A DNA stretch of 29,080 nt. It comes from a virus. Shown piece after piece: positions 10,314 through 24,674 of this stretch. Below the pieces are notes generated by a model that saw only the letters and a list, made by a program, of their open reading frames with translations, ran no database searches and was not told the origin of the DNA. Each line of letters opens with the position of its first letter. Position 1 is the stretch's first letter. The position numbers and the translations under genes were made by a program. The stretch is from the IMG/VR virus record IMGVR_UViG_3300036944_000031, positions 1 through 29,080 of that record; one strand, given 5' to 3'.

Positions 10314-10515
10314 TCAAGATCTCCATCTTTTGTTTGCGGATGGCTGCAATGTATCCAGCAACTTGTGTATAAATATCATTATCTTCTTTTGGCTTTTTAT
10401 CAGACATAGATTCTTTAGCTAACAATCCTTTAGCTGGTTTAGTTTTCTTAACAGCTAGCTTCTCATCTGCCATAGCACTCACCTTGCTATAAAACTTATC
10501 AAAGTTTTTCATCAT
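10300..10515 (-). CDS. Small basic protein of the internal-protein cluster
   Basis: A 71-residue protein starting at the ATG at 10515, which shares one base with the stop of the 842-residue gene and has GGAGAT just upstream. A TTG two codons earlier is possible but unnecessary. It is Lys-rich, carries TKPAKGLLAKES (the shared AKGL motif) near residue 30, and ends in a helix with YTQVAGYIAAIRKQKMEIL. No known domain is recognised. Tight coupling on both sides indicates co-expression with the internal virion proteins, and it could be a minor virion component. Confidence 0.7.
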   Translation of the reverse strand: MMKNFDKFYSKVSAMADEKLAVKKTKPAKGLLAKESMSDKKPKEDNDIYTQVAGYIAAIRKQKMEILNGKP

Positions 10516-13043
10516 CAATCTCCAAATATAAATCTAGTTACAGCGTCAAAGGCTTTATCAATTATGTTACCACCCGCTTTACTACCAGCAAATTGAGAAG
10601 CTACATTACCAAGAGCAGCAGCATTACCTGCTTCAATTGTAGCATTAGCAATAGCCATCTGACCTTCTCTAGAAATCTCTGCAGCAGCCAGTGATGTAGA
10701 CCTGTTAGCATCATTCTCAGAAGATTGCCAAGCGTGGGTAACATCATCACGATACATCTGAACATTGTTGTTATATTCAGCCAATGTAACTTGCTGTGAT
10801 AGCTGAGCATTAGCCATGTTAGCAGCATTAGTAGCTGCTGTGTTAGCAGTAGAAATCTCTCTCATCCACTGAGCATTAGCTTGGTCAATAACCAATCGTT
10901 GCTGTGCATTGAAAGTGTCTCTTTGGTTCTGTGACTCTGTATTAAACTTAGCAATAGAGTTTGATTGATCAGTGTTAAACTGACTCACTGCTGTAGTTTG
11001 TGCAGCATTAAACTGACTAACTTGTGTAGTCATTGTTGCATTAAACTGCGTAACTTGATTCTCACTGGCAGCATTAAATTGCTTAGCAGCATTAGCAGAA
11101 GCTGTGTCTGATAACAATGCTTGTGTTGTCACCTGTGCTTTAAACAATACAGCCTGTTGCTCATTGTCTAAGTTCTTCATGTCCATAGCTAAGAAAGCTT
11201 GAGCATTAACAACAGCAGCTTGCTGTCTAGCATTAAGGTTTGCTGTGTCCATAGCTGCATATGTAGCAGCGTTAGCAATGGTGGCAGACTGTGAAGCAGA
11301 TAGCTCAGCCAAGCCAATCGATTTCAACATCTCACTGTTGTGAAGCTTTGCTTGTTGCTCAGCAGTAAATGTTAAGTTGGTGGCTTGAGAAATCTTATCA
11401 GCATTTAACACAGCAGCTTGCTGTCTATTATCTAATATCTTACCTTGTAAGGCAGCTTCAATTTGTGCATTAGCCAAAGCAACTTGCTGACGGTTAGAAG
11501 TGTTAGCCATATCAACTTGCACCTGCATAGCACTGTTGTGCAAAGCAGCTTGCTGTACATTGTTTAAGTTGATGTTAGCTTGTTCTGCATATCTAGCAGC
11601 ATTAACAACAGCAGCCTGTTGTTGGTTGTTTAAGTTTTGTCCTTGTAAGGAGGCTCTGATTTGTGTGTTAGCCAACATTGTTTGTTGCATGTTGGACAAG
11701 TTCTGACTCTGAAGCTGGAAAGAACTAGCAGCATTCTGTAGTCTAGCTTGTTGTTCATTACTAAGATTTTGTAATGATAAGCCTTGTTGAGCAGCCGCAT
11801 TTGTCAACGCCACTTGTTGTCTGTTATTTAAATTCTGCAAACCTATTGTTGCAAAGGTTTGTGCATCCTGTACAGCAATAGGAAGAGCAGACTCCATAGC
11901 AGCTTGGAACACAGCAGTAGCAGCCATAGAGCTACCGCCCAATCCTCTTGATGCCATAGCAGCATTAGCTGCCCTCATAGCACCAGCAGCCCAAGCAGGA
12001 GTGCTACCATCATCAAAGCTCTTCATCAGCTCTGTAAGCTGTCCTTGAACAGTGGATTGAGCAGACACATCACCCTGTGCTGCAGCAGCTAATGTGCCAT
12101 CATCCACAGTGAACTTGTCTAGACGAGCAGCAACAACCGTAGCATCTGGAGCAAGACCCTCTGATGTAATTGCTGTGGCTTGAGCCATATCTTTCTCAGC
12201 AATCTGAGCAGCCTTAACAAGTTGATTTTCTTGTACAGCACCCTGAGCAGCTACAACTGCTGTAGGTGCTGCTGTTTGAGCAGCCTCTGCCTTCACAGCA
12301 GTGGCATCAGTTACAGGCGTAACCATTTCACCAGCAACTACTTCACGCTGTCCTGCCTGTACTGCACCTTTGTATTGTTCGCCTACTTTTTGAGCAGCAG
12401 CTACAGCTTCTTTAGACACTTGTCCTTGTGCTGCTGTAACCTCTGCTTCTTTAGACACTTCACCAGTAGCACCAGTGACACCTGCCAATGCTTCACCAAC
12501 AGCAGGAGCTGCCTGAGCAGCTTCATATGCTGCAGCTTCACCTGCTTTAGTAGCAGTTGCTTGTCCTGCTGTAGCAGTTGCACCACCAGTAACTTGAGCA
12601 GCTTGTTGTGCTGCTCTAGCGTCTGTGCTTATTTTTTGTTCTGGAGTTAATGCAATTTGAGTGGCAGTTACTTGTGAAGCTTTACCAGCTAGTGGCTTAC
12701 CAAACTCATCAGTGGTGGTGTCTACTGTAGGGTTTGTGAATAATACCGCTCTCTCTGAATCCATAGGCTTTCCGGTGGGGAGATCAATAGGTTTTCCAGA
12801 TTCATCCATAATAAGATCACCAGAGGATGGACGCACAGCACCAACAGCTCCACCTTCTGCATATCTCTTCATCTTCACCAGTCCACCCTTAGCCATACGC
12901 TCAGCAAACTTATTGGTGATGGCTGCATACTTAGCCTCCAAAGAAGGAGAAGACGCAATGAACTCATCAAAGCCCTGCATAGGACCATCATAGCCAAGCT
13001 TTCTAGCTACGACTTCTTTCTGTTGTGATGTAAAATCTTTCAT
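10515..13043 (-). CDS. 842-residue coiled-coil repeat protein, probable internal virion protein
   Basis: The N-terminal 60 residues carry RMAKGGLVKMKRYAEGG, a Gly/basic motif typical of phage internal or tail proteins. Residues about 130-320 are Ala/Thr/Val-rich low-complexity helix. From Asn404 to 645 come eleven tandem 22-residue units of the form NLxNxQQxAxxNA. From 652 to 717 there are six 11-residue units centred on QFN. The C-terminus is further Ala-rich helix and ends in AVTRFIFGD. Hendecad periodicity predicts long, right-handed coiled coils, suited to a trans-envelope fibre or core. The ATG overlaps the preceding metallopeptidase stop as ATGA. It is the first large gene of the ejection group. 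Function is inferred from position and architecture, as no enzyme motif is seen. Confidence 0.8.
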   Translation of the reverse strand: MKDFTSQQKEVVARKLGYDGPMQGFDEFIASSPSLEAKYAAITNKFAERMAKGGLVKMKRYAEGGAVGAVRPSSGDLIMDESGKPIDLPTGKPMDSERAVLFTNPTVDTTTDEFGKPLAGKASQVTATQIALTPEQKISTDARAAQQAAQVTGGATATAGQATATKAGEAAAYEAAQAAPAVGEALAGVTGATGEVSKEAEVTAAQGQVSKEAVAAAQKVGEQYKGAVQAGQREVVAGEMVTPVTDATAVKAEAAQTAAPTAVVAAQGAVQENQLVKAAQIAEKDMAQATAITSEGLAPDATVVAARLDKFTVDDGTLAAAAQGDVSAQSTVQGQLTELMKSFDDGSTPAWAAGAMRAANAAMASRGLGGSSMAATAVFQAAMESALPIAVQDAQTFATIGLQNLNNRQQVALTNAAAQQGLSLQNLSNEQQARLQNAASSFQLQSQNLSNMQQTMLANTQIRASLQGQNLNNQQQAAVVNAARYAEQANINLNNVQQAALHNSAMQVQVDMANTSNRQQVALANAQIEAALQGKILDNRQQAAVLNADKISQATNLTFTAEQQAKLHNSEMLKSIGLAELSASQSATIANAATYAAMDTANLNARQQAAVVNAQAFLAMDMKNLDNEQQAVLFKAQVTTQALLSDTASANAAKQFNAASENQVTQFNATMTTQVSQFNAAQTTAVSQFNTDQSNSIAKFNTESQNQRDTFNAQQRLVIDQANAQWMREISTANTAATNAANMANAQLSQQVTLAEYNNNVQMYRDDVTHAWQSSENDANRSTSLAAAEISREGQMAIANATIEAGNAAALGNVASQFAGSKAGGNIIDKAFDAVTRFIFGD
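10893..11834 (-). repeat. Coding repeats: 11 x 66 bp then 6 x 33 bp in the 842-residue protein
   Basis: Reading the minus strand, 11834 to 11109 encodes eleven 22-residue units (consensus NLNNxQQAAxxNAxxxxxxxxx), and 11090 to 10893 encodes six 11-residue units (consensus xVxQFNxxxxx). Units differ in codons, so the selection is on protein rather than DNA. The shift from a 22 to an 11 period suggests both derive from one hendecad. Confidence 0.85.
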
Positions 13044-13351
13044 ACGTTTCTCGGGTTCTCTATTGCTTCAGTCAGATAAGCTAGCATATCTCTGTTATCA
13101 CGCAAGAGTGCTATGACTCCTACAGCTAAACAATACACCTGTCTTTCTGACATGTTTAATTGGAAGCAGTCGTCTATAGCGTGAATACATTCATGTAACA
13201 ATGTATCCATCTCCGCTAAGGGGTGCTGACCAGACTTAATTTTAATTAAATATTCTTCGTAACTATACTCACCTAATTGATTAGGCAGTTCGTCCACAAC
13301 CTGTACAGGTACTTCTCTGCCGATAATTGTAAGAGAAGTTGGTAACGTCAT
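13040..13351 (-). CDS. Small HExxH metallopeptidase-like protein
   Basis: A 103-residue protein with the zinc-protease signature LLHECIHAID (His53, Glu54, His57). A Glu at 69 (MSERQ) is a candidate third ligand, as in SprT/ImmA-like minimal gluzincin folds. It is short but contains the usual strand-helix-helix core. It lies between the endolysin and the internal virion proteins and its stop overlaps the next ATG. Such proteins occur in many phages without a fixed role; maturation of a virion protein or a lysis-related task are possible. AAAGAG precedes the ATG; the 47 bases upstream hold no further gene. Confidence 0.8.
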   Translation of the reverse strand: MTLPTSLTIIGREVPVQVVDELPNQLGEYSYEEYLIKIKSGQHPLAEMDTLLHECIHAIDDCFQLNMSERQVYCLAVGVIALLRDNRDMLAYLTEAIENPRNV

Positions 13352-13398
13352 TATAACTCTTTATTCATTGTCATACCACAAATATCAGACTTAGTCAA

Positions 13399-14013
13399 TC
13401 ATCTAGACAACACATCCACCGCATGGTTGATATGTTTAATACGATCTTCTAGTCCAATTGTTCCACCATTAATCTTCTTAGTCATCATAACAAAGTCTTT
13501 GCTATTTGCAAATCTATTTAAGCCGTGTGTCTGCCAGAACCAGCCAGCAGTTTGAGCAGCATATCTAGGGGTACGGACAAGCTCTGGTTGCATAACAAAA
13601 TCTACACCCAAGGCTTGCCCTGCATGATAGAAGTTGCTATGACCAGTTAGCTGGAGAAATCCGGATCCACGGAACCTGAACCCATCCCCACTAGCTTCAT
13701 CCCTATTGCCCATACGATTGCCGTAAATGCGATTGGCAATCTTCTGTGGCTTCTTCTCATAGGCAGCAGCTTCCTCAGGTGTGAATCCCCAGACACGCTT
13801 AGGTGTCTTAGGGAATAGCTTAAGCAGTGTAGCTGCTCTGTAGTTTAAATTCTCTTCCATGATGCGGAAGTTGCCACACTCATGACCACATTGACCTATC
13901 CAGCTAGCCTGTTGAATAGGAGAGCTAATACCAAAGCGTTCAAATGTTTCATTAAAACTATCAGCTAATGAAGGGTCAATATGAAGTTGTTTTAAATGTT
14001 CAGCGGTTACCAT
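13399..14013 (-). CDS. Endolysin, glycoside hydrolase family 19 type
   Basis: A 204-residue peptidoglycan hydrolase of the chitinase class I/GH19 type. GQCGHECGNF supplies the first catalytic Glu (Glu45). GDGFRFRGSGFLQLTG followed by HSNF matches the family pattern GDGxxYRGRGxxQLTGxxNY. The late TAGWFWQTHGLN is also typical. There is no signal peptide or membrane anchor, so export should depend on a holin. The start overlaps the i-spanin end by 14 bases. It cleaves the glycan strands of the cell wall at the end of infection. Identification is secure. Confidence 0.93.
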   Translation of the reverse strand: MVTAEHLKQLHIDPSLADSFNETFERFGISSPIQQASWIGQCGHECGNFRIMEENLNYRAATLLKLFPKTPKRVWGFTPEEAAAYEKKPQKIANRIYGNRMGNRDEASGDGFRFRGSGFLQLTGHSNFYHAGQALGVDFVMQPELVRTPRYAAQTAGWFWQTHGLNRFANSKDFVMMTKKINGGTIGLEDRIKHINHAVDVLSR

Positions 14014-14470
14014 TGATTAAATTCCTTACTTCGTCATAGGCTGCGATGCATTGGTTGAGCTTGTTGATGGCTTTGTCTCCTTCGGCAACGATGTCGATAA
14101 GAGCATTAATAGTCTGTCGCTCAAGTTCGGCTGCATCGGTGTTGCTATTTCCTGCGGGAGTGGGGGAATCTGTGGTGGTTTGTACACAACTGGAGGTGGG
14201 GAGGCGCAGCTCACCAGTCCTAACAAGCTCACGCATAGCAGACTGCTTCTTAGATATTTCATTGTTTGCCTTTCTCAATGCCGCTTCTTTATCATTCAAT
14301 TTAGAAGTCATGTTCTTCTCTATCTCACGGGCTTCTTCATTCTTCTTAGCTATCTCTATCTGCATCTCTTGGTCACGGTCTTCCCAACCAAAGTGATAGC
14401 CACCTCTGTATGTACCAAACAGTGCAACCAGTGCACCCACTAATATCCAAGGAAGAGGAATGCCAAACAT
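14000..14470 (-). CDS. Inner-membrane spanin (Rz-like)
   Basis: A 156-residue protein with one N-terminal transmembrane segment (about 5-24, PLPWILVGALVALFGTYRGG), followed by a long Lys/Glu-rich coiled coil (about 35-90). This is the classic type II i-spanin plan, with the bulk in the periplasm. The embedded lipoprotein gene inside it and the adjacent endolysin confirm the role. With the o-spanin it fuses inner and outer membranes in the last step of lysis. The ATG overlaps the stop of the upstream gene by one base. Confidence 0.88.
   Translation of the reverse strand: MFGIPLPWILVGALVALFGTYRGGYHFGWEDRDQEMQIEIAKKNEEAREIEKNMTSKLNDKEAALRKANNEISKKQSAMRELVRTGELRLPTSSCVQTTTDSPTPAGNSNTDAAELERQTINALIDIVAEGDKAINKLNQCIAAYDEVRNLINGNR
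14026..14262 (-). CDS. Outer-membrane spanin lipoprotein (Rz1-like), embedded in the i-spanin gene
   Basis: A 78-residue lipoprotein wholly inside the i-spanin gene in another frame. The signal peptide MKYLRSSLLCVSLLGLVSC ends in the lipobox LVSC with Cys19. The mature part begins Pro-rich (ASPPPVVYKPPQIPPLPQE), as in lambda Rz1. AAAGG precedes the ATG. The embedded arrangement matches lambda Rz/Rz1. It would be lipid-anchored in the outer membrane and bind the i-spanin C-terminus across the periplasm. Confidence 0.9.
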   Translation of the reverse strand: MKYLRSSLLCVSLLGLVSCASPPPVVYKPPQIPPLPQEIATPMQPNLSDRLLMLLSTSLPKETKPSTSSTNASQPMTK

Positions 14471-15000
14471 TAGTCAGCTTCTTTCCTAGCTACTGCTATC
14501 TCTTCTCTATCCTCATCAGGCTCCATATGTTCTGGAGGAGTTGTTGGAGGAGGACCGGGAGTCCAGCTCTCATCAAGCTCTGGATTGTTCCAGACAGGCA
14601 TAGCACCAAAGGGCTGAGAAGGAAGGCCATAAGCAGACTGAGCAGGAGCATATGTGTTACTTACACAAGGCTGCTGCATTGTAGGGGCTGTAGGAGTTGT
14701 AGGCTTGAAGGCGTTAGTTGCTGTATTAACAGCTCTCTTACCTACGATGCCACCAATACCACCAACAATCAATAGCACAATGTCATTGAGCATCTTGGTG
14801 TAGGCTTGGTCAATCGGAGCCATACTCTTGATAGGCTGTGTTACAAAGGTAACAGAATATAACAATGCAAACACAATGCCAAAGAGGATGATGGTGATGG
14901 CTATCACCACAAATCCCCATATCCTAACCTCAATCTCTTCAGGGGTTAGTCTTGGTTTGGGCTGGCTTGGTGTCATCATTTTTGTTAGCTGTTCTATCAA
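14470..15000 (-). CDS. Two-transmembrane protein, holin candidate
   Basis: A 176-residue protein with two hydrophobic segments, about 28-52 (WGFVVIAITIILFGIVFALL) and about 72-90 (DIVLLIVGGIGGIVG), followed by a long Pro-rich, acidic cytosolic-type tail (GPPPTTPPEH and onward). It lies directly before the spanins and endolysin, the usual holin place. Two segments suit a class II holin, though the Pro-rich tail is unusual and a virion role cannot be excluded. The start is uncertain: a TTG at 15000 has GGAG 7 bases upstream, while ATG-ATG at 14979/14976 has only a weak site. It overlaps the preceding lipoprotein gene by up to 62 bases. Confidence 0.7.
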   Translation of the reverse strand: MIEQLTKMMTPSQPKPRLTPEEIEVRIWGFVVIAITIILFGIVFALLYSVTFVTQPIKSMAPIDQAYTKMLNDIVLLIVGGIGGIVGKRAVNTATNAFKPTTPTAPTMQQPCVSNTYAPAQSAYGLPSQPFGAMPVWNNPELDESWTPGPPPTTPPEHMEPDEDREEIAVARKEAD

Positions 15001-15166
15001 TTTGTTTCTCCAAGATGGGGGCTACTAAATACTCAGGGCATGTCTGTGTGAACTGACAACGTGGCTTTTGACATTGCTCAGCATGAAAGTTGTCTGGGTT
15101 CTGACAGAAGTATCTGTAACGATCTTCACAACCAACAAGCAACAATAACAACAATAAATATTTCAT
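14939..15166 (-). CDS. Small Cys-rich lipoprotein
   Basis: A 75-residue protein with a very short poly-Leu signal and lipobox LVGC (Cys13). The mature part has a regular Cys pattern (RYFCQNP, EQCQKPRC, TQTCPEY), a family I recognise from other proteobacterial phages near lysis genes, with no established role. A lipoprotein in addition to the o-spanin is notable, and superinfection exclusion or a second lysis factor are possible. Its ATG overlaps the stop of the preceding 58-residue gene (ATGA). Confidence 0.8.
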   Translation of the reverse strand: MKYLLLLLLLVGCEDRYRYFCQNPDNFHAEQCQKPRCQFTQTCPEYLVAPILEKQIDRTANKNDDTKPAQTKTNP

Positions 15167-15339
15167 ACCATTACATCCACAGAGTTTGCTCTAACCCATT
15201 GATTTTTCACTTGCTGCACTTTGCATGCTTGTTCTTTCTGATGGTTCAGTCTCTGAAGTTCTTTTAAATTCTTCTGATGGATAACTTGTTGAACTTCTCT
15301 CAACATGTTTGCATTGGCTTGGTAAGCAGTGATTTTCAT
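15163..15339 (-). CDS. 58-residue soluble helical protein
   Basis: A short gene starting MKITAYQANANMLREVQQ and ending RANSVDVMV. It is rich in Gln, Lys and Leu and predicted helical, with one Cys and no membrane segment. It is supported by ATGA overlaps at both ends, with the membrane gene before it and the lipoprotein after it. No domain is recognised. A coiled coil with the neighbouring membrane proteins is possible. Confidence 0.6.
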   Translation of the reverse strand: MKITAYQANANMLREVQQVIHQKNLKELQRLNHQKEQACKVQQVKNQWVRANSVDVMV

Positions 15340-15485
15340 AGCCCAATCTTTCCCAATAAAAGATTAACAATCTTGTTTGACAAGTCATCAGGTAAAAACT
15401 TTAAGAAACCTAAGAACCACCATGCAACACATCCATAAATAAATACCTTCAGAAACATATCAAATTGTTTCTGATATTCATTCAT
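15336..15485 (-). CDS. 49-residue single-transmembrane protein
   Basis: Starts MNEYQKQFDMFLK and has one hydrophobic segment, about 11-31 (core VFIYGCVAWWFLGFLKFL), then a short tail PDDLSNKIV. Both its ATG and its stop form ATGA overlaps with neighbours, which is the main evidence that it is translated. Size and topology fit a small holin, antiholin or another membrane accessory; which one cannot be told. Confidence 0.6.
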   Translation of the reverse strand: MNEYQKQFDMFLKVFIYGCVAWWFLGFLKFLPDDLSNKIVNLLLGKIGL

Positions 15486-15976
15486 CTGCCGCACCCACCT
15501 TTAGGACATAAGTTTATCAACTCATTAATACCAATAAAGACGAGGAGTAGAACAAAAGCAATACCACCAATGATGATTGCCCACTCTTGCATCTCTTCTT
15601 CTTTTTCTTTAGCCTTCTTTTCAGCAGCTCTTAACGCAGCTACTTCTTTGGCATCATCCCTATCCATCTCAGCTTGACGTTCTTTAATCTTATTCCAGAC
15701 ATCAATCTTTCCTGTCTGCATGAACAACATCTTGAGTTCTTCTTCAAATGCTCTGGCCTGTTCTAGCGCCATTTCAATTTGAAGAGCTGTTCCCATGTTG
15801 GAACTTTTACCAGATCTCTTAGCCTCAAGCATAGCTTTAGTAGCTACACTCTTAGCATCAAACATTTTGCCAATCATAGGAGCAAGAGAGCCTAAATCAT
15901 TGGCTACCTTGCTGGCCTTCTTGACCATGCTGATTGCTGACTGTATGCCAGCTAGGGCTGTCATCGGATCAATCAT
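15482..15976 (-). CDS. 164-residue protein with C-terminal membrane anchor
   Basis: The N-terminal half is amphipathic helix (DPMTALAGIQSAISMVKKA), the middle is a charged coiled coil (about 95-130, many Lys/Glu), and a single transmembrane segment lies near 132-153 (WAIIIGGIAFVLLLVFIGI), with a short Cys-containing tail CPKGGCGR. The body would be cytoplasmic with a tail anchor. I have seen similar proteins in other podovirus genomes beside tail-fibre genes, without a known role. Its ATG overlaps the preceding stop by the ATGA pattern. Confidence 0.75.
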   Translation of the reverse strand: MIDPMTALAGIQSAISMVKKASKVANDLGSLAPMIGKMFDAKSVATKAMLEAKRSGKSSNMGTALQIEMALEQARAFEEELKMLFMQTGKIDVWNKIKERQAEMDRDDAKEVAALRAAEKKAKEKEEEMQEWAIIIGGIAFVLLLVFIGINELINLCPKGGCGR

Positions 15977-16137
15977 CGCTCAACCTTTTTCCATTCAATG
16001 CATATAACTTTTCTGTTATATACATCTCCAGTCCATGTCCATCGGACACACCTATACTTCTCCTCCTTGGACGAAACAGGGAAAGATGTTAGTAATAAAA
16101 ATATTATTGATGCAATTTGTTTTCTATGGCTAGCCAT
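15973..16137 (-). CDS. 54-residue exported small protein
   Basis: Begins MASHRKQIASIIFLLLTSFP, a signal-peptide or N-anchor segment, followed by a compact basic domain with two Cys (YRCVRWTWTGDVYNRKVICI). The start is set at 16137, since the upstream extension of the open frame lies within the preceding gene. The ATG sits in the palindrome ATGGCTAGCCAT. A disulfide between Cys32 and the later Cys in the periplasm is plausible. Function unknown. It overlaps its upstream neighbour by 34 bases and the next gene by 4. Confidence 0.65.
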   Translation of the reverse strand: MASHRKQIASIIFLLLTSFPVSSKEEKYRCVRWTWTGDVYNRKVICIEWKKVER

Positions 16138-16328
16138 ATAGCACCACAGAATGCACCAATAACTAAGATGGGTTTCACTGCTCTGGCAAGCCATTCAAGA
16201 ACAACGAAAGCACCAGAAGCTGCATTGAATGCAACCACCACAGCTTCTGTGCTCTTGTCTAGCTTGTCTACTTTAGCTTCGACAGCACACAGACGCTCAT
16301 AAATTTGGGCGTGTGTTACGTCTTCCAT
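16104..16328 (-). CDS. 74-residue coiled-coil plus transmembrane protein
   Basis: An N-terminal helix with heptad character (IYERLCAVEAKVDKLDKS) is followed by a hydrophobic helix FNAASGAFVVLEWLARAV and a C-terminal transmembrane segment (about 52-70, PILVIGAFCGAIWLAI). The coiled coil plus membrane anchor layout resembles XhlA-type holin accessory proteins. It lies one base after the 73-residue gene at the head of the lysis/membrane cassette. Holin or lysis-accessory function is likely but unproved. Confidence 0.72.
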   Translation of the reverse strand: MEDVTHAQIYERLCAVEAKVDKLDKSTEAVVVAFNAASGAFVVLEWLARAVKPILVIGAFCGAIWLAIENKLHQ

Positions 16329-16329
16329 G

Positions 16330-16551
16330 TTATGCTGATGCGGCTTGGATGGGAGCTAAGTCTTCTGTAGTCCAATAGTCTTTAGCCAACATAATAACTA
16401 AATGCTCTTTGTTGCGAGCAACAGTATCAGCCCAGTCTTCATCAGACATTAGTTCTGGTTGACCTGCGTTAATCAAGTTTACTGAGTCCATTGCGGCACT
16501 GTAGTGCTTTGCAATTTCTTCTGCGGATGGTGTTTGTGTTTCAATAGTCAT
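16330..16551 (-). CDS. 73-residue conserved hypothetical protein behind the tail fibre
   Basis: A soluble acidic protein with a motif SDEDWADTVARNKEHLVIML and then DYWTTEDL. This Trp/His helix pattern recurs, in my recollection, in short proteins downstream of phage tail-fibre genes, often with no assigned function. It starts 22 bases after the fibre stop, with GAAAGG upstream. A fibre chaperone or adaptor role is only a guess from position. Confidence 0.72.
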   Translation of the reverse strand: MTIETQTPSAEEIAKHYSAAMDSVNLINAGQPELMSDEDWADTVARNKEHLVIMLAKDYWTTEDLAPIQAASA

Positions 16552-16573
16552 GATTTACCTTTCAGTTTAAAGA

Positions 16574-19500
16574 TTAGATGCCTGCGTCTGCAAGGCGTTT
16601 ACGAAGGGATTGAATTTCAGCCCACATCACAGGGATAAGAGCAGAAGCATCCATTTGCTGATACACAGGGTTTCCATCTGCATCTACTGCGTCTTTTTCA
16701 CCAATGTGTGCGTATGCTGGGGTTTCGTGAGCAATAAACATTGGGCGTTCTTGCGTAGCGCCTTTCATCTTTCCCATGTAAACAGGAACAGAGTCGATCA
16801 ATGCACCGCTATTGGTAACAGGGCCACTAATGTCTTTGGCTCGGTAGTCAGATGTTGTTCCGTAAACAACTAAACCACCTGATCGGTTATAAGTAACTCT
16901 GCCACGAACTGTAGGTGATGTGTCGGTTGCAAAAGCTAAAAACTGGTTATCCCCAGAAGCCGCCCTATTCCAAAAACCCATAGTGTCTGTTGTCGCTCCT
17001 CCACCAGTACTAAATTCTGCGGCGGGGAAGCTGGCATCATAAACTTGCACACGAGTGCCGCCATTTAAAAACGCAGTGGGGGAACCAATTAAAAGTTTTG
17101 CACCAAGCGAGAAGTTACCCGAGCCATCAAACACACCCCGTGGATTCCCATCCCCATCAGACAGCACGATGTAGTTGCTTGCTGTGCGAATGTCTAGGCC
17201 ACCTTGGTTGCCTGAGAAAAATCCAATGATTGAATTTTTTGAGCCTGTGGTCATTGATTCACCAGAACTTCTTCCGATGAATGTGTTGTATGTACCAGTT
17301 GTTACACTTTCTCCTGCCGCACGACCAAAAAACGCATTGTTATTTCCAGTCGTATTAAAGTATCCTGCGCCTTGACCAACAAAAGTATTGGTTGCTCCTG
17401 TGGTAGTGCTATACCCCGCTTGATAACCTACAGCAGTGTTGTTTGATGCTGTAGTATTAAGCTGTAAAGCGCCTCGACCAAGCGCTGTATTGGCGGCTCC
17501 TGTTGTATTTGTCAACAAAGCACCTGTACCAACCGCTGTATTGGCATCACCAGTCGTGTTTTGCCGCATGGCTTCATCGCCAACAGCAGTATTCAATGGG
17601 CCAGTTGTATTAAACTTTAATGCACCTCTACCAACCGCTACGTTTGAATAGCCAGTTGTATTAGTTAAAGCCGCCTGATAACCAACAGCAGTATTGTTTG
17701 AGGCTGTGGTGTTGGCAAATAAAGCTTCCCTGCCCATAGCCGTATTGGTTGAACCTGTGGTGTTAGATGTAAGCGTACCAACACCCATTGCTGTGTTGTT
17801 TGAGCCAGTCGTATTTGCGTTTAAAGCACCGGGTAAAACACCAGCCCATGTTCCACCAACAGCTACGTTGCCATTTCCAGTTGTGTTTGAGGCAAGAACG
17901 TCAGAGCCAATTGCGGTAATGCCAGCGCCAGTAGTGTTTGAAGTAGCGGCCCGATAACCTACAGCAGTACCACTCCCTGCTGTGGTATTTGAGTTAAAAG
18001 CCAAACGACCAACGGCAGTATTCTGAGCGCCAGTAGTGTTTAAATACAAAGCTCTAGCACCGAAAGCAGTGTTATCTGCGGCACTTGTATTAGCCGCCAA
18101 TGCAGATGAACCCACAGCAGTATTAGCATCGCCAGTGTTTAATGTCAGTGCTTGATAACCAACAGCCACCAATTGAACGCCTGTGGTGTTGGTATAAGCC
18201 GCTTGATAACCTACAGCAGTGTTGTTAGATGCTGTGGTGTTAGACTGAAGTGCGCCATAACCAAGACCAGTATTGTTAGATGCTGTTGTTGCAGAAAGAA
18301 GCGCTCCCGCACCCATTGCAACGTTGGCAATACCCGTCGTGTTTGCTTTTAGCGACTCTTGTCCTACAGCGGTGTTCTGCTGACCAGTAGTTGTGTTAAG
18401 CCCAGCCTGATAACCAACAAAAGTTTGATTTGCCGCTGTACTGTTATAACCCGCTTGATAACCAACAGCGGTGTTGCTTGATGCTGTGGTGTTTAAACGA
18501 AGCGCCAACGCTCCCATTGCTACGTTGTAAGAACCAGTAGTATTGGCGTTCAAACTGCCATGACCATAAGCAGAGTTCCAAAGACCTGTTGTGTTTGAAT
18601 ACAAAGTCTCTGTACCAAAGGCATTGTTGTTGTAGCCAGTGGTGTTTAAATACAAAGCCCTAAAACCAAAAGCCGCAATGTCCGTGCCTGTGGTGTTGCT
18701 GAATCCAGCTTGAAAACCTACGGCTGTATTAGCTGCTGCTGTGGTGTTGGAAGATAATGCGGATTGACCTAAAGCGGTATTGTAATTTCCGCTTGTATTA
18801 GCTTGCAAACTATTTGCGCCAATTGCCGTGTTTTGAGTTCCTGTGTTTGCAACTAATGCATAATGACCAAACGCAGCGTTTTGATCTCCAGCAGCAGCGT
18901 ATAAAGCACTATTTCCTACAGCAGTGTTGTACTGACCTGTCGTTACTCCATACCCCGCCTGATAACCGACAGCGGTGTTGTATGAAGCTGTGGTGTTAGA
19001 GTAAAGGGCGCTGTCACCCATTGCGGTGTTAGAAGCGCCAGTTGTGTTTCCACCAAGTGAATGTTTACCAACAGCAGTATTGTTTGCACCAGTTGTGTTT
19101 GCATCTAAGGAGCGAGAGCCAATTGCAGTTATGTTTACACCAGTAGTATTAGATAAACCTGCTTGAAAGCCTGCAAATAAATTTTCATCCCCCGTAGTAT
19201 TGCTATACCCAGCCTGAAAACCTAAAGCCGTGTTGTTTGATGCCGTGGTGTTTGCGTTAAGAGCTTCACGACCAATTGCGGTATTGCTTCCGCCAGTGGT
19301 GTTTGTAGCTAAAGAAGAATAACCAAGAGCAGTATTATCTCCACCTGTAGTGTTGTTATATGCCGCAAAAAAACCAACGCCCGTATTGTTGTTGCCTGTG
19401 GTATTGAGTCTTAGTGCCCACAATCCAAACGCTGAGTTTGACGAACCTGAAGTGTTTGTGGCTAAAGCTGAAGAACCAACAGCCGTATTATTTGCACCAG

Positions 19501-20113
19501 CACCAGCACCACGACCAACAGTGATGCCATAAACAGTCAGGTCAGTACCAGAGTACAACAGGTTAGCAGAGTCAGTCAGCAAACCAGCAGTTGTGGCGTA
19601 GGTCACTCGGCCAGAAGTCAAAGAGCTTAGCGACAAGCTTGCGCCAGCAACAGTGCCAGTAAGTGTAGGACTAGCTGACATAACAACATTGCCAGTACCA
19701 GTGATGGCATTGCTCACTAGCCCTTTAGAGCCATCAGAGAATACAGCTCTACTGGCTGTCAATGAAGATAGGATGGGCTGTGCTGTAAAGGTAGCCACAC
19801 CAGTGACAGCCAATGTGCCGCCAACACTACCATTACCCGCTAAGAACAAGTCTTTAAATTTTAAAGCGCTGCTACCAATGTCTACAGTGTTTGTAGTTTT
19901 TGGAGCCACCAAAGTGGCAGAGATAGTTACATCCTGTGTTGGACCAAGCGCAGTGATGGGAGCGCCTTCACCAGAAGTACCATCATGGTTGTGTCCAGTA
20001 GATGCATTGAAGGCATCTTGTATACCATCAAACTCATTATCTAAGTCGGCAGCATTAATAACATTACCGTCAGCAATGTTATTGGTAGTGTCTTTACGAA
20101 CGTAGCCCGTCAT
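16574..20113 (-). CDS. Tail fibre with NTTG 17-residue repeats and C-terminal S74 chaperone
   Basis: An 1179-residue receptor-binding fibre. The N-terminus (YVRKDTTNNIADGNVINAAD, then FNASTGHNHDGT) is of the type that attaches phage fibres to the tail. Residues about 200-969 are some 45 units of a 17-residue repeat (NTTGxxNTAxGxxALxx), expected to form a repetitive trimeric beta shaft like bacterial surface adhesins. A GGL/TASNYIVL transition leads to a C-terminal head. The last 92 residues form a peptidase S74 intramolecular chaperone: SDYRAKD gives the Ser1088/Lys1093 dyad, followed by FIAHE and ALIPVMWAEIQSLRKRL. Self-cleavage before Ser1088 is expected from endosialidase fibres. The fibre would mature as a trimer after the chaperone is removed. 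Confidence 0.92.
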   Translation of the reverse strand: MTGYVRKDTTNNIADGNVINAADLDNEFDGIQDAFNASTGHNHDGTSGEGAPITALGPTQDVTISATLVAPKTTNTVDIGSSALKFKDLFLAGNGSVGGTLAVTGVATFTAQPILSSLTASRAVFSDGSKGLVSNAITGTGNVVMSASPTLTGTVAGASLSLSSLTSGRVTYATTAGLLTDSANLLYSGTDLTVYGITVGRGAGAGANNTAVGSSALATNTSGSSNSAFGLWALRLNTTGNNNTGVGFFAAYNNTTGGDNTALGYSSLATNTTGGSNTAIGREALNANTTASNNTALGFQAGYSNTTGDENLFAGFQAGLSNTTGVNITAIGSRSLDANTTGANNTAVGKHSLGGNTTGASNTAMGDSALYSNTTASYNTAVGYQAGYGVTTGQYNTAVGNSALYAAAGDQNAAFGHYALVANTGTQNTAIGANSLQANTSGNYNTALGQSALSSNTTAAANTAVGFQAGFSNTTGTDIAAFGFRALYLNTTGYNNNAFGTETLYSNTTGLWNSAYGHGSLNANTTGSYNVAMGALALRLNTTASSNTAVGYQAGYNSTAANQTFVGYQAGLNTTTGQQNTAVGQESLKANTTGIANVAMGAGALLSATTASNNTGLGYGALQSNTTASNNTAVGYQAAYTNTTGVQLVAVGYQALTLNTGDANTAVGSSALAANTSAADNTAFGARALYLNTTGAQNTAVGRLAFNSNTTAGSGTAVGYRAATSNTTGAGITAIGSDVLASNTTGNGNVAVGGTWAGVLPGALNANTTGSNNTAMGVGTLTSNTTGSTNTAMGREALFANTTASNNTAVGYQAALTNTTGYSNVAVGRGALKFNTTGPLNTAVGDEAMRQNTTGDANTAVGTGALLTNTTGAANTALGRGALQLNTTASNNTAVGYQAGYSTTTGATNTFVGQGAGYFNTTGNNNAFFGRAAGESVTTGTYNTFIGRSSGESMTTGSKNSIIGFFSGNQGGLDIRTASNYIVLSDGDGNPRGVFDGSGNFSLGAKLLIGSPTAFLNGGTRVQVYDASFPAAEFSTGGGATTDTMGFWNRAASGDNQFLAFATDTSPTVRGRVTYNRSGGLVVYGTTSDYRAKDISGPVTNSGALIDSVPVYMGKMKGATQERPMFIAHETPAYAHIGEKDAVDADGNPVYQQMDASALIPVMWAEIQSLRKRLADAGI
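17205..19515 (-). repeat. About 45 x 51 bp coding repeats with a 255 bp super-period
   Basis: Each unit encodes NTTGxxNTAxGxxALxx (17 residues; a few units are 16, one is 24). Every fifth unit is a variant, NTTAxxNTAVGYQAxxx. On the + strand its conserved bases begin at 17421, 17676, 17952, 18204, 18456, 18711, 18960 and 19215. The spacings are 255, 276, 252, 252, 255, 249 and 255, all explained by the unit-length exceptions. Confidence 0.93.
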
Positions 20114-20122
20114 AGTTATTCC

Positions 20123-22099
20123 TTATCTTCTATCATGTGTGGCATACTCTAGCGTTGCAGCGTCCAGAGAAAACGGAGGGTCTTGGCTATCAGAAACAAA
20201 CTGTAAAGATACAGAGAATCCAGAACCAACAACCTGTGTTTGAAATTGTTTCTTCAACTTATCACCATAAACAGTTGTGCCATACTTAGCACCACTGCTA
20301 CCATAAAAACCTACACTACCTGCGCTGTTTGACAGCGTTATTGTTGAAGGCTGAATGGATCCCTGATCATCAAAATCTAGCTTTAAATTCACTGATGTTG
20401 TAACAGATCCTTGTGGATCTGTATAGAGGTAAAGCTTATAAAAAGTCTTTCTCACCCTAAAATCATTGATAGGAACATAGGGGGTGGCAAAGGAAGCTAC
20501 AATGTTTGAGCCATCAAAGTTATTTCCCTGTTCCATCTCATAAACAAATCCATCATTATTAGCAAATACAATGGTTTCTGTTTGGTTCTGATAATCACCA
20601 TCAGCTACATAGCATTTAAAGCCCACTAGTTCTGCCCAAGCAATACCACCAGTGGCTTCACCAGTAACTTGTGTGCCTAATATTCCTTTGGCATTAGAGG
20701 CAGTGATACTATCATTATACCCAAATATTCTATATTGTGACTTCTGTTTAATAACACAACTAGCAAAAGCAGAGTGAGCATTAATTAAAGAAGTTGTTTC
20801 AGGCTGGATGGGTTTAGACACCACACCTAAGCTAAAGTCACCAATACGATCTGTAGCGCCAAGTAGTCTTAAGCCCTCTGGCCCTAAGAACATAACATCA
20901 CCACCCACTTCTTGAATGGTATCAGGAGCAACACAGCCCACATTCTTAGTGACTGGCTGCAGTGCGAAGTCTTGAATGGTGGTTCCAATAAGCTGACTAA
21001 TAGTTTTGTCTGTAAAGATAATTAATGTTTCTCTAAAGACAATGATGCCAGTGATTAAACCACCAACACTAATGATGCCAGAGCCAGCAGCCGCAGTGAA
21101 GTCATCATCTGTATAAGGAGCAGTGAATATGATTTTATCGTCTTTAACAAAGAACAATTGGTTCTTATGGCTAATGACAAACTGAGCACCCAAGATGTCT
21201 GTTGTCTTATCTGACAACACTTTAAATGTTGTACCATCATAGATGAATGGATAGTTTGTACCATCAACACCCGCTATCTTCTCAGTACTACTAAGTCTAT
21301 ACTTACTAAATCTAGTCTTGCTGTTGCTGGCTCTATTAGCAGATAACCAAGTGACAGCAGCATTATCTGCAGGGCTTGAGGCTAATGCTGGATAAATGGA
21401 GACAGTGGCTGCAGTGGTTGTAACAGTGGGAACTGCTAACACTGTATACACTTTCTCAATACCAGCAATACTAAAAGTATCTCCAATCTGTGGAGCCTTA
21501 ATTAATCCATCAATAGCAACAGTGCTTCCTGATTGACCTGCTCCATTAACAAGCACTGTCCCATAATAAGGAACACTAATTTTAGTGAATCCTGTACCAG
21601 TGGTGCTATAAATGTCAGCATTTCTAGCAGCAATGACAGCGCTGTTCCAAGCAGCCACGCCCTTCACTGTGCCTGTATGCGAAGTGAAAGTGACAGCAGC
21701 TTTATCTGCTGGGCTTGAAGCTAGAGATGTTGTGAGCGTTACAGTGGCAATCTTGTAAGTGGAGTTGTAGGATACACCAGCAGCAGCAATGGTGTAGGTT
21801 CCAGTGACACCAGCAATGGTGAATGTTGAGCCATCAACAGGAGCAGTTAAGATGTTGGAGATGACTAAGGTAGTGCCAGTCTGTCCACTGCCCTGCACCT
21901 TAGGATTACCATAAGCAGGAATAAAGGCACTGTCGTATTTGTTATAGCCTTCAATACGCATATAGCCACCATCCACTGAAGGCTCAAAATTCTTTAAGAG
22001 CCTTGCGCTTCCGGGAGCTTGAGTGCCCTGCTGTAGTGGAGAAAGATTTGAAATCAATCCACCACGGAATTCAAACGGATACGTCTGCCATCCATCCAT
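20123..22099 (-). CDS. Tail tubular protein B / nozzle protein (T7 gp12-like)
   Basis: A 658-residue beta-rich protein with the start typical of podovirus nozzle proteins (FEFRGGLISNLSPLQQGTQA, LKNFEPSVDGGYMRIEGY). It lies right after the gp11-like gene with a one-base overlap, as in T7 genes 11-12. Propeller-type features such as IIFTDKTISQLIG and GGDVMFLGPEGLRLLG follow. Two related inserts, about 68-143 and 184-258, each carry GxGQxGxT...FxIAGxxxxYT...LASSPADxAAVT and look like a duplicated beta-sandwich decoration. It would form the distal hexameric nozzle that opens for DNA ejection. Confidence 0.85.
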   Translation of the reverse strand: MDGWQTYPFEFRGGLISNLSPLQQGTQAPGSARLLKNFEPSVDGGYMRIEGYNKYDSAFIPAYGNPKVQGSGQTGTTLVISNILTAPVDGSTFTIAGVTGTYTIAAAGVSYNSTYKIATVTLTTSLASSPADKAAVTFTSHTGTVKGVAAWNSAVIAARNADIYSTTGTGFTKISVPYYGTVLVNGAGQSGSTVAIDGLIKAPQIGDTFSIAGIEKVYTVLAVPTVTTTAATVSIYPALASSPADNAAVTWLSANRASNSKTRFSKYRLSSTEKIAGVDGTNYPFIYDGTTFKVLSDKTTDILGAQFVISHKNQLFFVKDDKIIFTAPYTDDDFTAAAGSGIISVGGLITGIIVFRETLIIFTDKTISQLIGTTIQDFALQPVTKNVGCVAPDTIQEVGGDVMFLGPEGLRLLGATDRIGDFSLGVVSKPIQPETTSLINAHSAFASCVIKQKSQYRIFGYNDSITASNAKGILGTQVTGEATGGIAWAELVGFKCYVADGDYQNQTETIVFANNDGFVYEMEQGNNFDGSNIVASFATPYVPINDFRVRKTFYKLYLYTDPQGSVTTSVNLKLDFDDQGSIQPSTITLSNSAGSVGFYGSSGAKYGTTVYGDKLKKQFQTQVVGSGFSVSLQFVSDSQDPPFSLDAATLEYATHDRR

Positions 22100-22824
22100 T
22101 ATCTAACCCTATCACCAAAGCCGCCAAAAGCAGATGATTGTGTAATGGCAGTAGATTGCATATACACATATCTATTGATAAGAAGAATTCTCATCTTCTT
22201 AATACCTTCATCAAACTTAGTCTTAGCAAGAGAGGCTGCTTGTTCATTACTTCTAAACATGTAAGCATGATACATAGCACCATCAAGAATAACTTGTTTA
22301 AATCTCTCAGGAATAGATGGAACATCTGTAGCACTAGAAAGATCTACAGGAATTCTGTAGTATTCATAAGCAATTTCATATGCTTGATCGGGAGCAGGAA
22401 CAACGCCCCACTCTAAACTAGGAGCATGGAATACATATGAAGGAACATCACGCTTACCAGAATCAGTAGAATATTCTTGATCTACATATCTCTGAAGATA
22501 GTCATCATAAGTGATGATGGTAAGTCTAACTGTCTCATTGGCTAAAGTAGCATCTTCCTTGATACGGAAAGTATCAAAGTCAATGGTGCTAGCATCAGAG
22601 GGAAAAGCATATCTAGTTGTACCTGCTGTCAAAGTTTCTTCAGCAAGTATATGATTGAAAGGCCACTCATAGTGAGTGTGGTTGATGTCTCTAATAGCAG
22701 CATTCACAGCATCTTTGATGTGTGCATAGAAACCAGTGGCAGCAGGAAAGTTTGCAGAAGTAAGCTCAACTTCGTTCAGCCTTCTATTCACTTCATTGGT
22801 TAGCCCAATATAGTCATATGCCAT
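22099..22824 (-). CDS. Tail tubular protein A / head-tail adaptor (T7 gp11-like)
   Basis: A 241-residue protein beginning YIGLTNEVNRRLNEVELTSA, then KDAVNAAIRDINHTHYEWPF, the helical opening of podovirus gatekeeper/tubular A proteins. Next comes a beta part (TRYAFPSDASTIDFDTFRI) and a helical end (PERFKQVILDGAMYHAYMFR). It would form the upper tail ring between portal and nozzle. Gene order (before the nozzle gene) agrees. Identified by pattern and context. Confidence 0.85.
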   Translation of the reverse strand: MAYDYIGLTNEVNRRLNEVELTSANFPAATGFYAHIKDAVNAAIRDINHTHYEWPFNHILAEETLTAGTTRYAFPSDASTIDFDTFRIKEDATLANETVRLTIITYDDYLQRYVDQEYSTDSGKRDVPSYVFHAPSLEWGVVPAPDQAYEIAYEYYRIPVDLSSATDVPSIPERFKQVILDGAMYHAYMFRSNEQAASLAKTKFDEGIKKMRILLINRYVYMQSTAITQSSAFGGFGDRVR

Positions 22825-22825
22825 A

Positions 22826-23143
22826 TCATTGTTCCTTAACTCTTAAGCGAACTACTCGCTCAGCAACATTACCACTACTATCAGTGATGCGGCAATAAAC
22901 TTTATATTCAATGTTGTTAGTACCTAAGCCTAAGTTTATTGTAGTGACTCCACCAGAAATAGTCTGTGCTACATTCTGAATACCATTGACAGTGTTACCT
23001 GCTGCGATGGTTGTCTTTGTTCCAGTGCTATCATCTACAGACCAGACACAGGTACTAATTGTTGCACCATTCAAAAACCTAGACCAGTCTACACTGTAAT
23101 CTAAAGTTTCATCTGGATCTTTATTAGGCCATCGAAAAGACAT
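22826..23143 (-). CDS. Small beta-rich structural protein, 105 residues
   Basis: Opens WPNKDPDETLDYSVDWSRFL and continues as a single beta-sandwich-like domain ending CRITDSSGNVAERVVRLRV. Proteins with a DPDE-LDYxxDW start are widespread between capsid and tail genes of phages. The domain resembles an Ig-like fold, suggesting a capsid or tail accessory protein. It lies 1 base before the tubular A gene and 10 after the repeat protein. Specific function unknown. Confidence 0.75.
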   Translation of the reverse strand: MSFRWPNKDPDETLDYSVDWSRFLNGATISTCVWSVDDSTGTKTTIAAGNTVNGIQNVAQTISGGVTTINLGLGTNNIEYKVYCRITDSSGNVAERVVRLRVKEQ

Positions 23144-23153
23144 TATTAAACTC

Positions 23154-24128
23154 CTATTCCACTAAAGCACTTCTATCAGCACTAGTAGATCTTCTATATG
23201 TATATGCTTGTCTAGGCTCAATAGCCACATGTGATGTCCTATCATACCTTGTATCTTGTCTATCCACATACACTCTACGAGATTCAGCCATCACTAAAAT
23301 TGTTCTTTCTTTGCCTGTGCTTTGTCTTTCAACATACACAGTGCGTTTCCTATCATATAACGAAGCTACAGCAGCATAATCAAATACAGTTACTGTAACA
23401 GCTACTGTGCCTATCGCTCCTATAGCTTCCACACCATCGAAGGTGGGTCTAGCATTATTAGCTGCTACAACATCACCAAGAGCTGTTGTGGCTTCTACAC
23501 CAGTGATGGCTACTAAGGCATTAGCGAGGGTAGAGACAACCCCTAAACTAGCTATACCCTCAACACCAACCAAATCTGTTGTGGCTTTTGCCACTATAAC
23601 AACACTACCTATTGAGGTTGTTGCTTCAATCCCATCTACAGGAATTCTATTAATCGATCTAACTTCTACAGTGCCTATAGCTCCTGTAGCTTCTACGCCT
23701 GTTATTGCTGTGAGTGCCTTAGCAATTACAACAACACTGCCAACATTTCCTTGTGCTTCTACACCAGTTACACTAGTAACTGCTTGAGCAACAACATCAA
23801 CACTACCAACATTTCCTGTGGCAGATAAGCTAGTAGGTGTAAGCGTACAACCTAAACTAAACGATACGCCATCATTGACATATCCTGTAGCTTCCACACC
23901 AACTAGGCTAGTAACTGCTACGCCTACTACACCTACACTACCTGTTGCGCCTACAGCAACTAAGCTAACAACTACATGGTTAGCATCACCACTAATAACA
24001 ACACCACTATCGGATGTTGCTGTGCCTTGCAACCCATCGGGAACATATGCAACATTGCTTACACCATAACGAGATGTCCCGTATATGCCAATGCCATATA
24101 TTGCACCCGACCGGGTTGTCGTAGCCAT
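23154..24128 (-). CDS. Repeat-rich structural protein (22-residue beta repeats), 324 residues
   Basis: After a Gly/Tyr-rich N-terminus (YGIGIYGTSRYGVSNVAYVP) come tandem 22-residue units of GVEATGxIGxVxVxAxAxxxxx; six run in strict register, with their GVEA/GVEG codons 66 bases apart. The last 64 residues hold a second 22-residue repeat rich in Arg, Tyr and Asp (RTVYVERQSTGKERTILV, RRVYVDRQDTRYDRTSHV). Both repeat types are known from phage structural proteins of uncertain role. A head or tail fibre/spike, or a decoration, is likely from the position between the capsid and tail genes. Confidence 0.75.
   Translation of the reverse strand: MATTTRSGAIYGIGIYGTSRYGVSNVAYVPDGLQGTATSDSGVVISGDANHVVVSLVAVGATGSVGVVGVAVTSLVGVEATGYVNDGVSFSLGCTLTPTSLSATGNVGSVDVVAQAVTSVTGVEAQGNVGSVVVIAKALTAITGVEATGAIGTVEVRSINRIPVDGIEATTSIGSVVIVAKATTDLVGVEGIASLGVVSTLANALVAITGVEATTALGDVVAANNARPTFDGVEAIGAIGTVAVTVTVFDYAAVASLYDRKRTVYVERQSTGKERTILVMAESRRVYVDRQDTRYDRTSHVAIEPRQAYTYRRSTSADRSALVE
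23400..23765 (-). repeat. Tandem 66 bp coding repeats (GVEATG units)
   Basis: Six units of 22 codons in exact register, read on the minus strand, each beginning Gly-Val/Ile-Glu-Ala/Gly. The units have diverged in wobble positions. Further looser copies lie towards 23990. Confidence 0.8.
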
Positions 24129-24141
24129 AACCTACGACTCC

Positions 24142-24585
24142 TTATGCAATACGAACAATAGCGTTGCTTGCGTCTGCTGTGGGGAATTGAATTACAAAGT
24201 CACCGTTGGTAGATGTTTTATCACCACCAAAAGAAATTACAGCTACAGCATTAGTTGTACCTGTACCACCATCAGTGGTTGTATTATAAATTAAAGCACC
24301 AGCAGCGGTGATGGTTGCACTAGCCCAAGTAGCATCAGCAAAGTCAATGAATGCTGTAGTGCCACTGCTAGTAGGATCAATGTTTGTTAGAGCAATACCA
24401 CCAGCAGTGTAACCAGTGCCTACAACTTCGTTAGAGGTTGTGTAAGCTGTGGTTGAAGCACCAAGGGTAGCTGCAGATGTGTACAAAGCAATCTTAAATG
24501 TATGACCGCTTGTAACATTAAAGTCATGTTTACGCTCAAGCAATTCTTTTTTGAAGCTTGTGCAAAGGGCAGATGTAATAGCCAT
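24142..24585 (-). CDS. Conserved phage head-region protein, 147 residues
   Basis: Sequence FKKELLERKHDF, then FKIALYTSAATLGASTTAYT, TGYTAGGIALTN, FADATWASATITAAGALIYN, and ending in FVIQFPTADASNAIVRIA. I recognise this as a very common phage protein in structural clusters, normally uncharacterised; it is all-beta and probably a virion component. AGAGGA precedes the ATG. It is the first gene after the tandem hairpins, so its level may be set lower than that of the capsid genes. Confidence 0.75.
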   Translation of the reverse strand: MAITSALCTSFKKELLERKHDFNVTSGHTFKIALYTSAATLGASTTAYTTSNEVVGTGYTAGGIALTNIDPTSSGTTAFIDFADATWASATITAAGALIYNTTTDGGTGTTNAVAVISFGGDKTSTNGDFVIQFPTADASNAIVRIA

Positions 24586-24604
24586 TAGAGAATCCTCTTA
24601 GTTT

Positions 24605-24660
24605 TAAAAACGCTCTCTAATAGAGCATACAGAAATGGGAGAGGCGATTAAGCCCCTCCC
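24605..24660 (-). terminator. Tandem hairpins after the capsid/decoration genes
   Basis: On the minus transcript the first hairpin (24660-24637) pairs GGGAGGGGC with GCCTCTCCC in nine pairs, one of them G-U. The second (24626-24612) is GCTCT-ATTAG-AGAGC followed by GTTTTT, the form of an intrinsic terminator with a short stem. They fill the 89-base gap between the decoration gene and the next gene. Read-through must occur, since no promoter is obvious beyond, so an attenuator like T7's after gene 10 is likely. Confidence 0.65.
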
Positions 24661-24674
24661 ACATCAACTAGCTA

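Follow-up and report, generated by a model that had tools for sequence, protein, structure and literature searches.

Regularly spaced motifs in the 45-unit repeat of a phage tail fibre as probable boundaries of exchanged shaft cassettes

Introduction

Motif-based exchange of receptor-binding parts is already known in T-even phages, in which conserved motifs are the sites of exchange between distal fibre parts (Tetart, Desplats and Krisch 1998, cited in PMC12529663 and PMC10408124), and has been proposed for other E. coli phages, where DNA motifs of 20–95 bp, conserved across genera, are the suggested recombination hotspots for receptor-binding parts (PMC10408124). Hypervariable segments between glycine-rich motifs have been described for gp38 (PMC12892980). 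Here, we analyse a tail-fibre gene in positions 1 to 29,080 of IMG/VR virus record IMGVR_UViG_3300036944_000031 (the whole stretch of 29,080 nucleotides (nt) is referred to as the window), in which a short motif, the marker, recurs at every fifth unit of a 45-unit repeat array. The markers are probably exchange boxes: they would partition a YadA-like beta-roll fibre into cassettes that homologous recombination shuffles. The initial annotation of this DNA had reported a five-unit super-period and offered block duplication or a structural role of every fifth coil to account for it; the reading in which the blocks matter because phages exchange them at the marker is absent from it.

As in T-even fibres, short conserved motifs in the window fibre appear to flank variable adhesin segments that would be swapped by recombination between the motifs. 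In T-even phages, the variable segments are tip-adhesin loops, whereas the eight motifs of the window would split a solenoid shaft into multi-coil cassettes, and both motif and fold differ. By this comparison, the fibre family of the window seems to share with the T-even type the bounding of exchanged segments by conserved motifs, a likeness in working for which no homology is claimed. The motifs of the E. coli phages lie upstream and downstream of the receptor-binding domain, while those of the window are found inside the repeat, many times per gene. In the open-access literature searched, no account of exchange boxes recurring within a beta-roll shaft came to light; a text search for NTAVG returned unrelated words only, and one for a chlorovirus glycoprotein repeat returned nothing.

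The same 17-residue array, together with a C-terminal S74 domain (in CRP-1 just below the curated cut-off), is found in several phages that have been isolated or are complete, namely Roseobacter phages CRP-7 and CRP-1, Pelagibacter phages HTVC111P and HTVC112P, and phage ctfne034. Their arrays are shorter and built of different cassettes, and the proteins are annotated merely as tail structural, fibre or endosialidase proteins. The fibres of CRP-7 and CRP-1 carry markers of the NTTAS.NTAVGYQA type.

The repeat array and its markers

The gene and its array are located as follows.

16574–20113, minus strand: tail-fibre gene, an open reading frame (ORF) of 1179 residues comprising an N-terminal region, the 45-unit array and a C-terminal region
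17186–19489, minus strand: 45-unit array (units 0–44), residues 209–976, in 17-residue units
17798–17869, minus strand: unit 32, 24 residues, with a 7-residue insertion

All units are 17 residues long, with the exception of units 11, 12, 20 and 26 (16 residues each) and unit 32. The initial annotation had placed the array at 17205–19515, which is corrected here; its count of 45 units and its single 7-residue insertion stand. The marker was defined as NTTA..NTAVG[YF][QR]A, that is, NTTG with its fourth residue changed to Ala in one unit, and [YF][QR]A in the next. It was found at units 5, 10, 15, 20, 25, 30, 35 and 40 (8/8, none missed), and the five-unit super-period is real.

19211–19252, minus strand: marker box 1, unit 5 (unit start 19234), NTTASNNTALGFQA
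18956–18997, minus strand: marker box 2, unit 10 (unit start 18979), NTTASYNTAVGYQA
18707–18748, minus strand: marker box 3, unit 15 (unit start 18730), NTTAAANTAVGFQA
18452–18493, minus strand: marker box 4, unit 20 (unit start 18475), NTTASSNTAVGYQA; left end of the cassette common with L044/L086
18200–18241, minus strand: marker box 5, unit 25 (unit start 18223), NTTASNNTAVGYQA; right end of the L044/L086 cassette
17948–17989, minus strand: marker box 6, unit 30 (unit start 17971), NTTAGSGTAVGYRA
17672–17713, minus strand: marker box 7, unit 35 (unit start 17695), NTTASNNTAVGYQA
17417–17458, minus strand: marker box 8, unit 40 (unit start 17440), NTTASNNTAVGYQA; left end of the segment common with L001

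The marker-to-marker steps are 255, 249, 255, 252, 252, 276 and 255 nt, and each step other than 255 contains a 16- or 24-residue unit, so that all seven agree with the 255-base spacing reported earlier. The chance of eight marks falling evenly five apart in 45 positions is 4.6 × 10−8, a post hoc figure. The initial annotation, in which NTTA followed by NTAVGYQA occurs at every fifth unit, was right as to position but too literal as to wording: NTAVGYQA is found verbatim in five of the eight markers, the remaining three reading NTALGFQA, NTAVGFQA and GTAVGYRA, and marker-like units also occur off phase (NTTA/TSA at units 23 and 27, FQA/YQA at units 6, 21 and 26). The automatic marker definition additionally calls unit 21. 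At the DNA level, the motif NTTASN-NTAVG[YF]QA occupies about 42 nt with the consensus AACACCACMGCMTCYAACAACACTGCTGTWGGTTATCARGC.

Shared segments and their ends

For comparison, 79 distinct relatives were retrieved by an IMG/VR scan and enlarged to 144, which gives 145 viral proteins with the window included (first set). A second, later set held 111 further proteins and was partly seeded with three first-set cassettes, so it is not fully independent. In addition, 82 proteins with the same 17-residue repeat were taken from bacterial genome assemblies. All arrays were compared unit by unit, and a shared run was defined as at least two non-marker units at ≥80% DNA identity between otherwise different arrays.

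Where otherwise unrelated fibres have near-identical DNA segments in common, the ends of these segments coincide with the motif more often than expected by chance. Among the 53 runs of the first set, a marker was present in both partners at 16 of 37 left ends and 21 of 49 right ends, as compared with 0–3 and 0–2 when the markers were shifted by 1–3 units. The 76 runs of the second set gave 20/54 and 22/66, against at most 7 and 5 for shifts of 1–4 units. After pooling and removal of redundancy, a marker adjoined 67 of 156 left-end and 80 of 170 right-end sides, where the null expectation was 21.1 (standard deviation 4.3) and 22.8 (standard deviation 4.4), respectively. A more conservative figure was obtained from breakpoints placed at base resolution, a test that discounts the higher background identity of markers: breakpoints fell within the boxes of both partners in 13/37 and 19/49 cases vs. 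6.9 and 9.1 expected (P = 0.013 and 0.0007).

The window itself contains two such segments.

18179–18493, minus strand: putative exchanged cassette, units 20–25, 315 nt, 90% identity to IMGVR_UViG_3300021962_000758 (L044/L086)
17144–17452, minus strand: putative exchanged segment from marker 8 to the array end, 309 nt, 95% identity to L001

Units 20–25 of the window match units 11–16 of L086 at 80–94% per unit, while the units on either side show identities of 0.29–0.67; similarly, units 40–44 match L001 at 90–100% per unit, and the preceding four units at 0.47–0.63. Among the relatives, L113 and L124 are 94–100% identical in the units between two markers and 45–51% identical outside, and their cassette reappears in a third setting in L412. 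L014 and L109 have five units in common (90–98%), with 51–59% identity before them and 53% past the next marker. L064 and L096 agree at 0.90–1.00 over units 0–7 and diverge from the first marker onward; the N-terminal part of the gene is 97–98% identical between L064 and L079, which is the same contig as L096. For several pairs with a cassette in common, no shared flanking genes could be recognised within the few kilobases available.

Fibre turnover between otherwise nearly identical phages was also observed. The flanking proteins of L152 and L064 are 99% identical, and their arrays share one internal cassette besides the two opening units. L169 is 94% identical to the window downstream (13280–16328) and 89% identical upstream (19652–25112), and the array between these regions is without a match.

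Distribution of the period-five signal

In the phase test on all-against-all unit similarity, z was about 7–8 at period 5, with no signal at periods 2–4 and 6–9 and one at period 10 merely as a multiple. A clear phase signal was confined to the marker unit (phase 0) and the unit preceding it (phase 4); phases 1–3 together gave z values of 1.1 (BLOSUM), 1.4 (amino acid identity) and 0.7 (nucleotide identity). Codon identity at identical residues was likewise about 0.50 within phases 0 and 4, 0.37–0.41 within phases 1–3, and 0.40 overall. The initial annotation had proposed that the super-period would fall if adjacent units, rather than units five apart, were closest and no periodic variant existed; averaged over the 79 relatives, adjacent units are indeed the most alike (lag 1 > lag 5), yet the periodic variant is present.

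These results bear on the proposal that the fibre grew by copying of five-unit blocks, the markers being a conserved relic of that process. The exact five-unit spacing across the whole array would suit such growth, as would internal repeats at multiples of 255 nt in some relatives (255 in L037 and L034, 510 in L023). However, recent whole-block duplication would raise all phases, and thus the blocks of the window are not recent copies of one another: phases 1–3 lack a signal, and codon identity is raised in phases 4 and 0 only. Moreover, the two segments described above are 90–95% identical to those of other phages, whereas the DNA identity of the window blocks to one another is at most about 62%. 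Recent tandem block duplication was rejected by the phase and codon tests, and block duplication in general is a very improbable origin of the markers.

Conservation of the marker at the DNA level

The motif is conserved in phage fibres both at the protein level and at several synonymous sites. In marker-rich phage fibres, the Thr13 codon is ACC in 85% of markers vs. 22% of non-marker units, and the excess was seen within 118 of the 120 proteins showing a difference. In the same fibres, Asn12 is AAC in 89% of markers vs. 48%, and Tyr6 is TAT in 93% vs. 72%. ACC at Thr13 was as unevenly distributed in the second set (82% vs. 20%), while no difference was found in the bacterial proteins (29% vs. 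29%). Seven of the eight markers in the window have ACC. The synonymous excess extends from about −6 to +9 codons around the unit start, and exact DNA runs of at least 20 nt through the unit start were found in 3.3% of cross-phage marker pairs, as opposed to 0.02% of other pairs.

Synonymous-site conservation raises a less usual possibility, namely that selection acts on a coding sequence for its use as a substrate of recombination. The marker would then be a dedicated, repeated recombination box, kept synonymously across lineages, by which fibres are rebuilt from a cassette pool shared among aquatic phages; we put this forward tentatively, as the less probable extension of the exchange reading.

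Two other explanations at the nucleic acid level were considered. The coding strand of the fibre gene contains the sequence AACACCAC 11 times, and the remainder of the window once; as a genome-wide signal this sequence was rejected, being nearly confined to the fibre gene and not Chi-like in the window. Compared with its synonymous variants, marker mRNA has slightly more structure (z −0.47 vs. −0.05), and an RNA hairpin in the marker (stem ACAGC/GCTGT) was not adopted, as its third-base pair (−4, +2) shows no compensation.

Marker spacing and constraints on the marker coil

In the 145 viral proteins, the observed and expected numbers of markers spaced by four, five and six units were 71/39, 120/34 and 59/29, respectively, and spacings of one to three units were depleted. 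The 111 further proteins again gave a peak at five units (47 observed, 16 expected). With seven gaps of five, the window is among the most regular arrays (probability of about 1 × 10−4 when pooled gaps are treated as independent draws). Among the bacterial proteins, 36 of 2432 units (1.5%) are markers, and there is no peak at five. The 17-residue repeat is found in many bacterial genome assemblies (L250–L329), mostly of Bacteroidetes and largely without the marker.

It might be argued that one coil in every four to six requires a distinctive turn to relieve twist or lock the trimer, exchange being a by-product of the resulting conservation. In this turn, Ala would replace Gly at column 15 and Gly/Ala would replace Leu at column 9, with column 1 of the following coil hydrophobic. 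The motif is in fact a set of coupled residues spread over three successive coils (A15 with S16 and N17; then Y6, Q7 and Y10; then a hydrophobic residue at column 1), and Ala15 occurs in adjacent coils less often than expected even where markers are few (7 vs. 37 in marker-poor viral arrays and 18 vs. 33 in bacterial arrays). In contrast, long arrays of 69 (L032) and 40 units (L052) have no marker and one of 156 units (L049) has a single one, and the synonymous codon conservation is left unexplained. Because bacterial proteins built on the 17-residue repeat contain few markers, and those at irregular intervals, the repeat fold does not need the marker. An obligatory form of the structural role that the initial annotation considered for every fifth coil is therefore not supported, and the structural explanation as a whole appears unlikely.

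A weaker structural constraint on the marker coil is possible. Since Ala15 avoids neighbouring coils in marker-poor viral and in bacterial arrays, some structural constraint probably sets a minimum distance between markers. In marker-poor arrays (L003, L024, L049 and others), Ala15 on its own, with the rest of the marker absent, avoids adjacent units and favours spacings of 2–4.

Alternatively, the Tyr and Gln of the markers could form regular receptor or glycan sites kept by selection for binding, as the marker adds Tyr6-Gln7 where these columns otherwise vary. Variability would be expected of a site that has to meet host variation, however, whereas the marker is the most conserved part, and the synonymous conservation again has no explanation; we consider such sites a highly improbable cause of the pattern.

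Predicted structure of the array

The array sequence had no match in Pfam, NCBIfam or the PDB, and no sequence relative among solved structures. An AlphaFold2 monomer of eleven window units, built on an alignment of 55 related segments, had a mean predicted local distance difference test score (pLDDT) of 66 (about 75–82 over the first 80 residues) and contained one short strand per coil. No match was obtained by Foldseek with this model at E ≤ 0.001. VIA-align superposed the predicted solenoid on the YadA-like heads of CbpF (Z 13.1), UspA1 (Z 12.7), BpaC, BoaA, EibD and AtaA (11.2–13.1 over all six); these are bacterial surface anchors, whereas the window protein is a phage fibre. Left-handed beta-helix acyltransferases align equally well (Z 12.3–12.7). 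The repeat of YadA-like heads is 14 residues long, compared with 17 in the window array, and has an NT/S-A-[VI]-G pattern that we take to be similar to that of the window. Based on the model, the array is likely a solenoid of 17-residue coils, and the shaft is probably a trimeric beta-roll resembling the YadA head.

Proposed mechanism and significance

According to the exchange reading, the gene would encode a long tail fibre whose shaft is the predicted solenoid of 17-residue coils, and the motif would cut this shaft into cassettes of 4–6 coils, with exactly five between all eight motifs in the window. The motif DNA could serve as a stretch of homology for recombination between phages co-infecting one cell, so that cassettes may be exchanged, gained or lost without disturbing the reading frame or the repeat register, the presumed purpose being to alter the fibre's adhesive or antigenic surface. 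The spacing of about five coils would persist because whole cassettes move, and its lower limit of about four coils may be set by the protein motif itself, the conservation of which spans about 2.3 coils.

Several points weigh against this interpretation. The evidence for crossover consists of the putative end products found in the sequences, and about half of the cassette ends are not beside a marker. Conserved markers can pull the ends of alignments towards themselves, and the test that discounts this effect leaves only about a two-fold excess. A conserved protein motif alone would give conserved DNA, and with it a passive crossover site. Synonymous conservation is uneven, ACC and AAC being nearly fixed while neighbouring codons have at least two common choices, and is therefore not as simple homogenisation by recombination predicts. 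Finally, most relatives were fetched with patterns that included NNTAVGYQ, which overstates how common markers are; the fetching did not directly select for spacing, end positions or codon use, because the search patterns are degenerate at the codon level. A small sample of ten arrays, retrieved by way of the N-terminal region only, gave a similar picture for spacing and codons (10 vs. 3.3 expected at spacing four and 6 vs. 2.8 at spacing five; ACC 86% vs. 23%).

If markers are indeed exchange boxes, variation at a hypervariable fibre locus of aquatic phages would gain a concrete anatomy: a multi-cassette shaft with conserved joints and movement of cassettes between lineages. This would offer a phage a way to reassemble the part of the fibre that may meet the host. 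The reshaping of fibres also becomes testable, as cassettes can be counted and traced between genomes and exchange at the joints can be measured.

Genomic context of the fibre gene

The two regions flanking the array within the gene are the following.

19490–20113, minus strand: N-terminal region, residues 1–208, common to near relatives
16577–17185, minus strand: C-terminal region, residues 977–1179, 39% identity to the C-terminal end of phage ctfne034

The fibre ORF matches PHROGs virion structural and tail spike families (E-values from 1 × 10−130 to 1 × 10−94). DNA similarity to most near relatives stops at about 19650, ahead of the array. Positions 16330–19650 form a hypervariable locus, as near relatives are 85–94% identical on either side and unrelated in the array region. 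The match of the C-terminal region to the C terminus of ctfne034 has an E-value of 3 × 10−30, and the S74 match of ctfne034 one of 9.5 × 10−7. Relatives of the window fibre terminate in the S74 chaperone domain; a profile search of the window's own C terminus gave no Pfam match, Peptidase_S74 included.

The fibre gene is located directly downstream of a tail gene (20123–22099), and the same order is found in Roseobacter phage CRP-345, where gp50 is downstream of gp51. The tail gene shares 57.7% identity with its CRP-345 counterpart over 99% of the length and 35% with that of HMO-2011 over 62% of the length. Judging from the conserved tail gene beside the fibre, the one gene compared in this 29-kb record, the virus would be an HMO-2011-type podovirus. 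CRP-345, the closest isolate found, has at the same place a fibre without the 17-residue repeat.

No reverse transcriptase was present among the ORFs scanned in the 29-kb record, in which a diversity-generating retroelement was not specifically searched for. A 1732-residue ORF (3236–8434) is without any Pfam or PHROGs match, as is the 842-residue ORF at 10515–13043, within which 33-nt tandem repeats are found (10975–11082). Tandem repeats of 21/42 nt lie at 28242–28347 within the ORF at 28024–28959, which belongs to no PHROGs family. Genes for the large (cut at the window start) and small subunits of ribonucleotide reductase occupy positions 18–2439; they are encoded on the plus strand, and the structural genes on the other.

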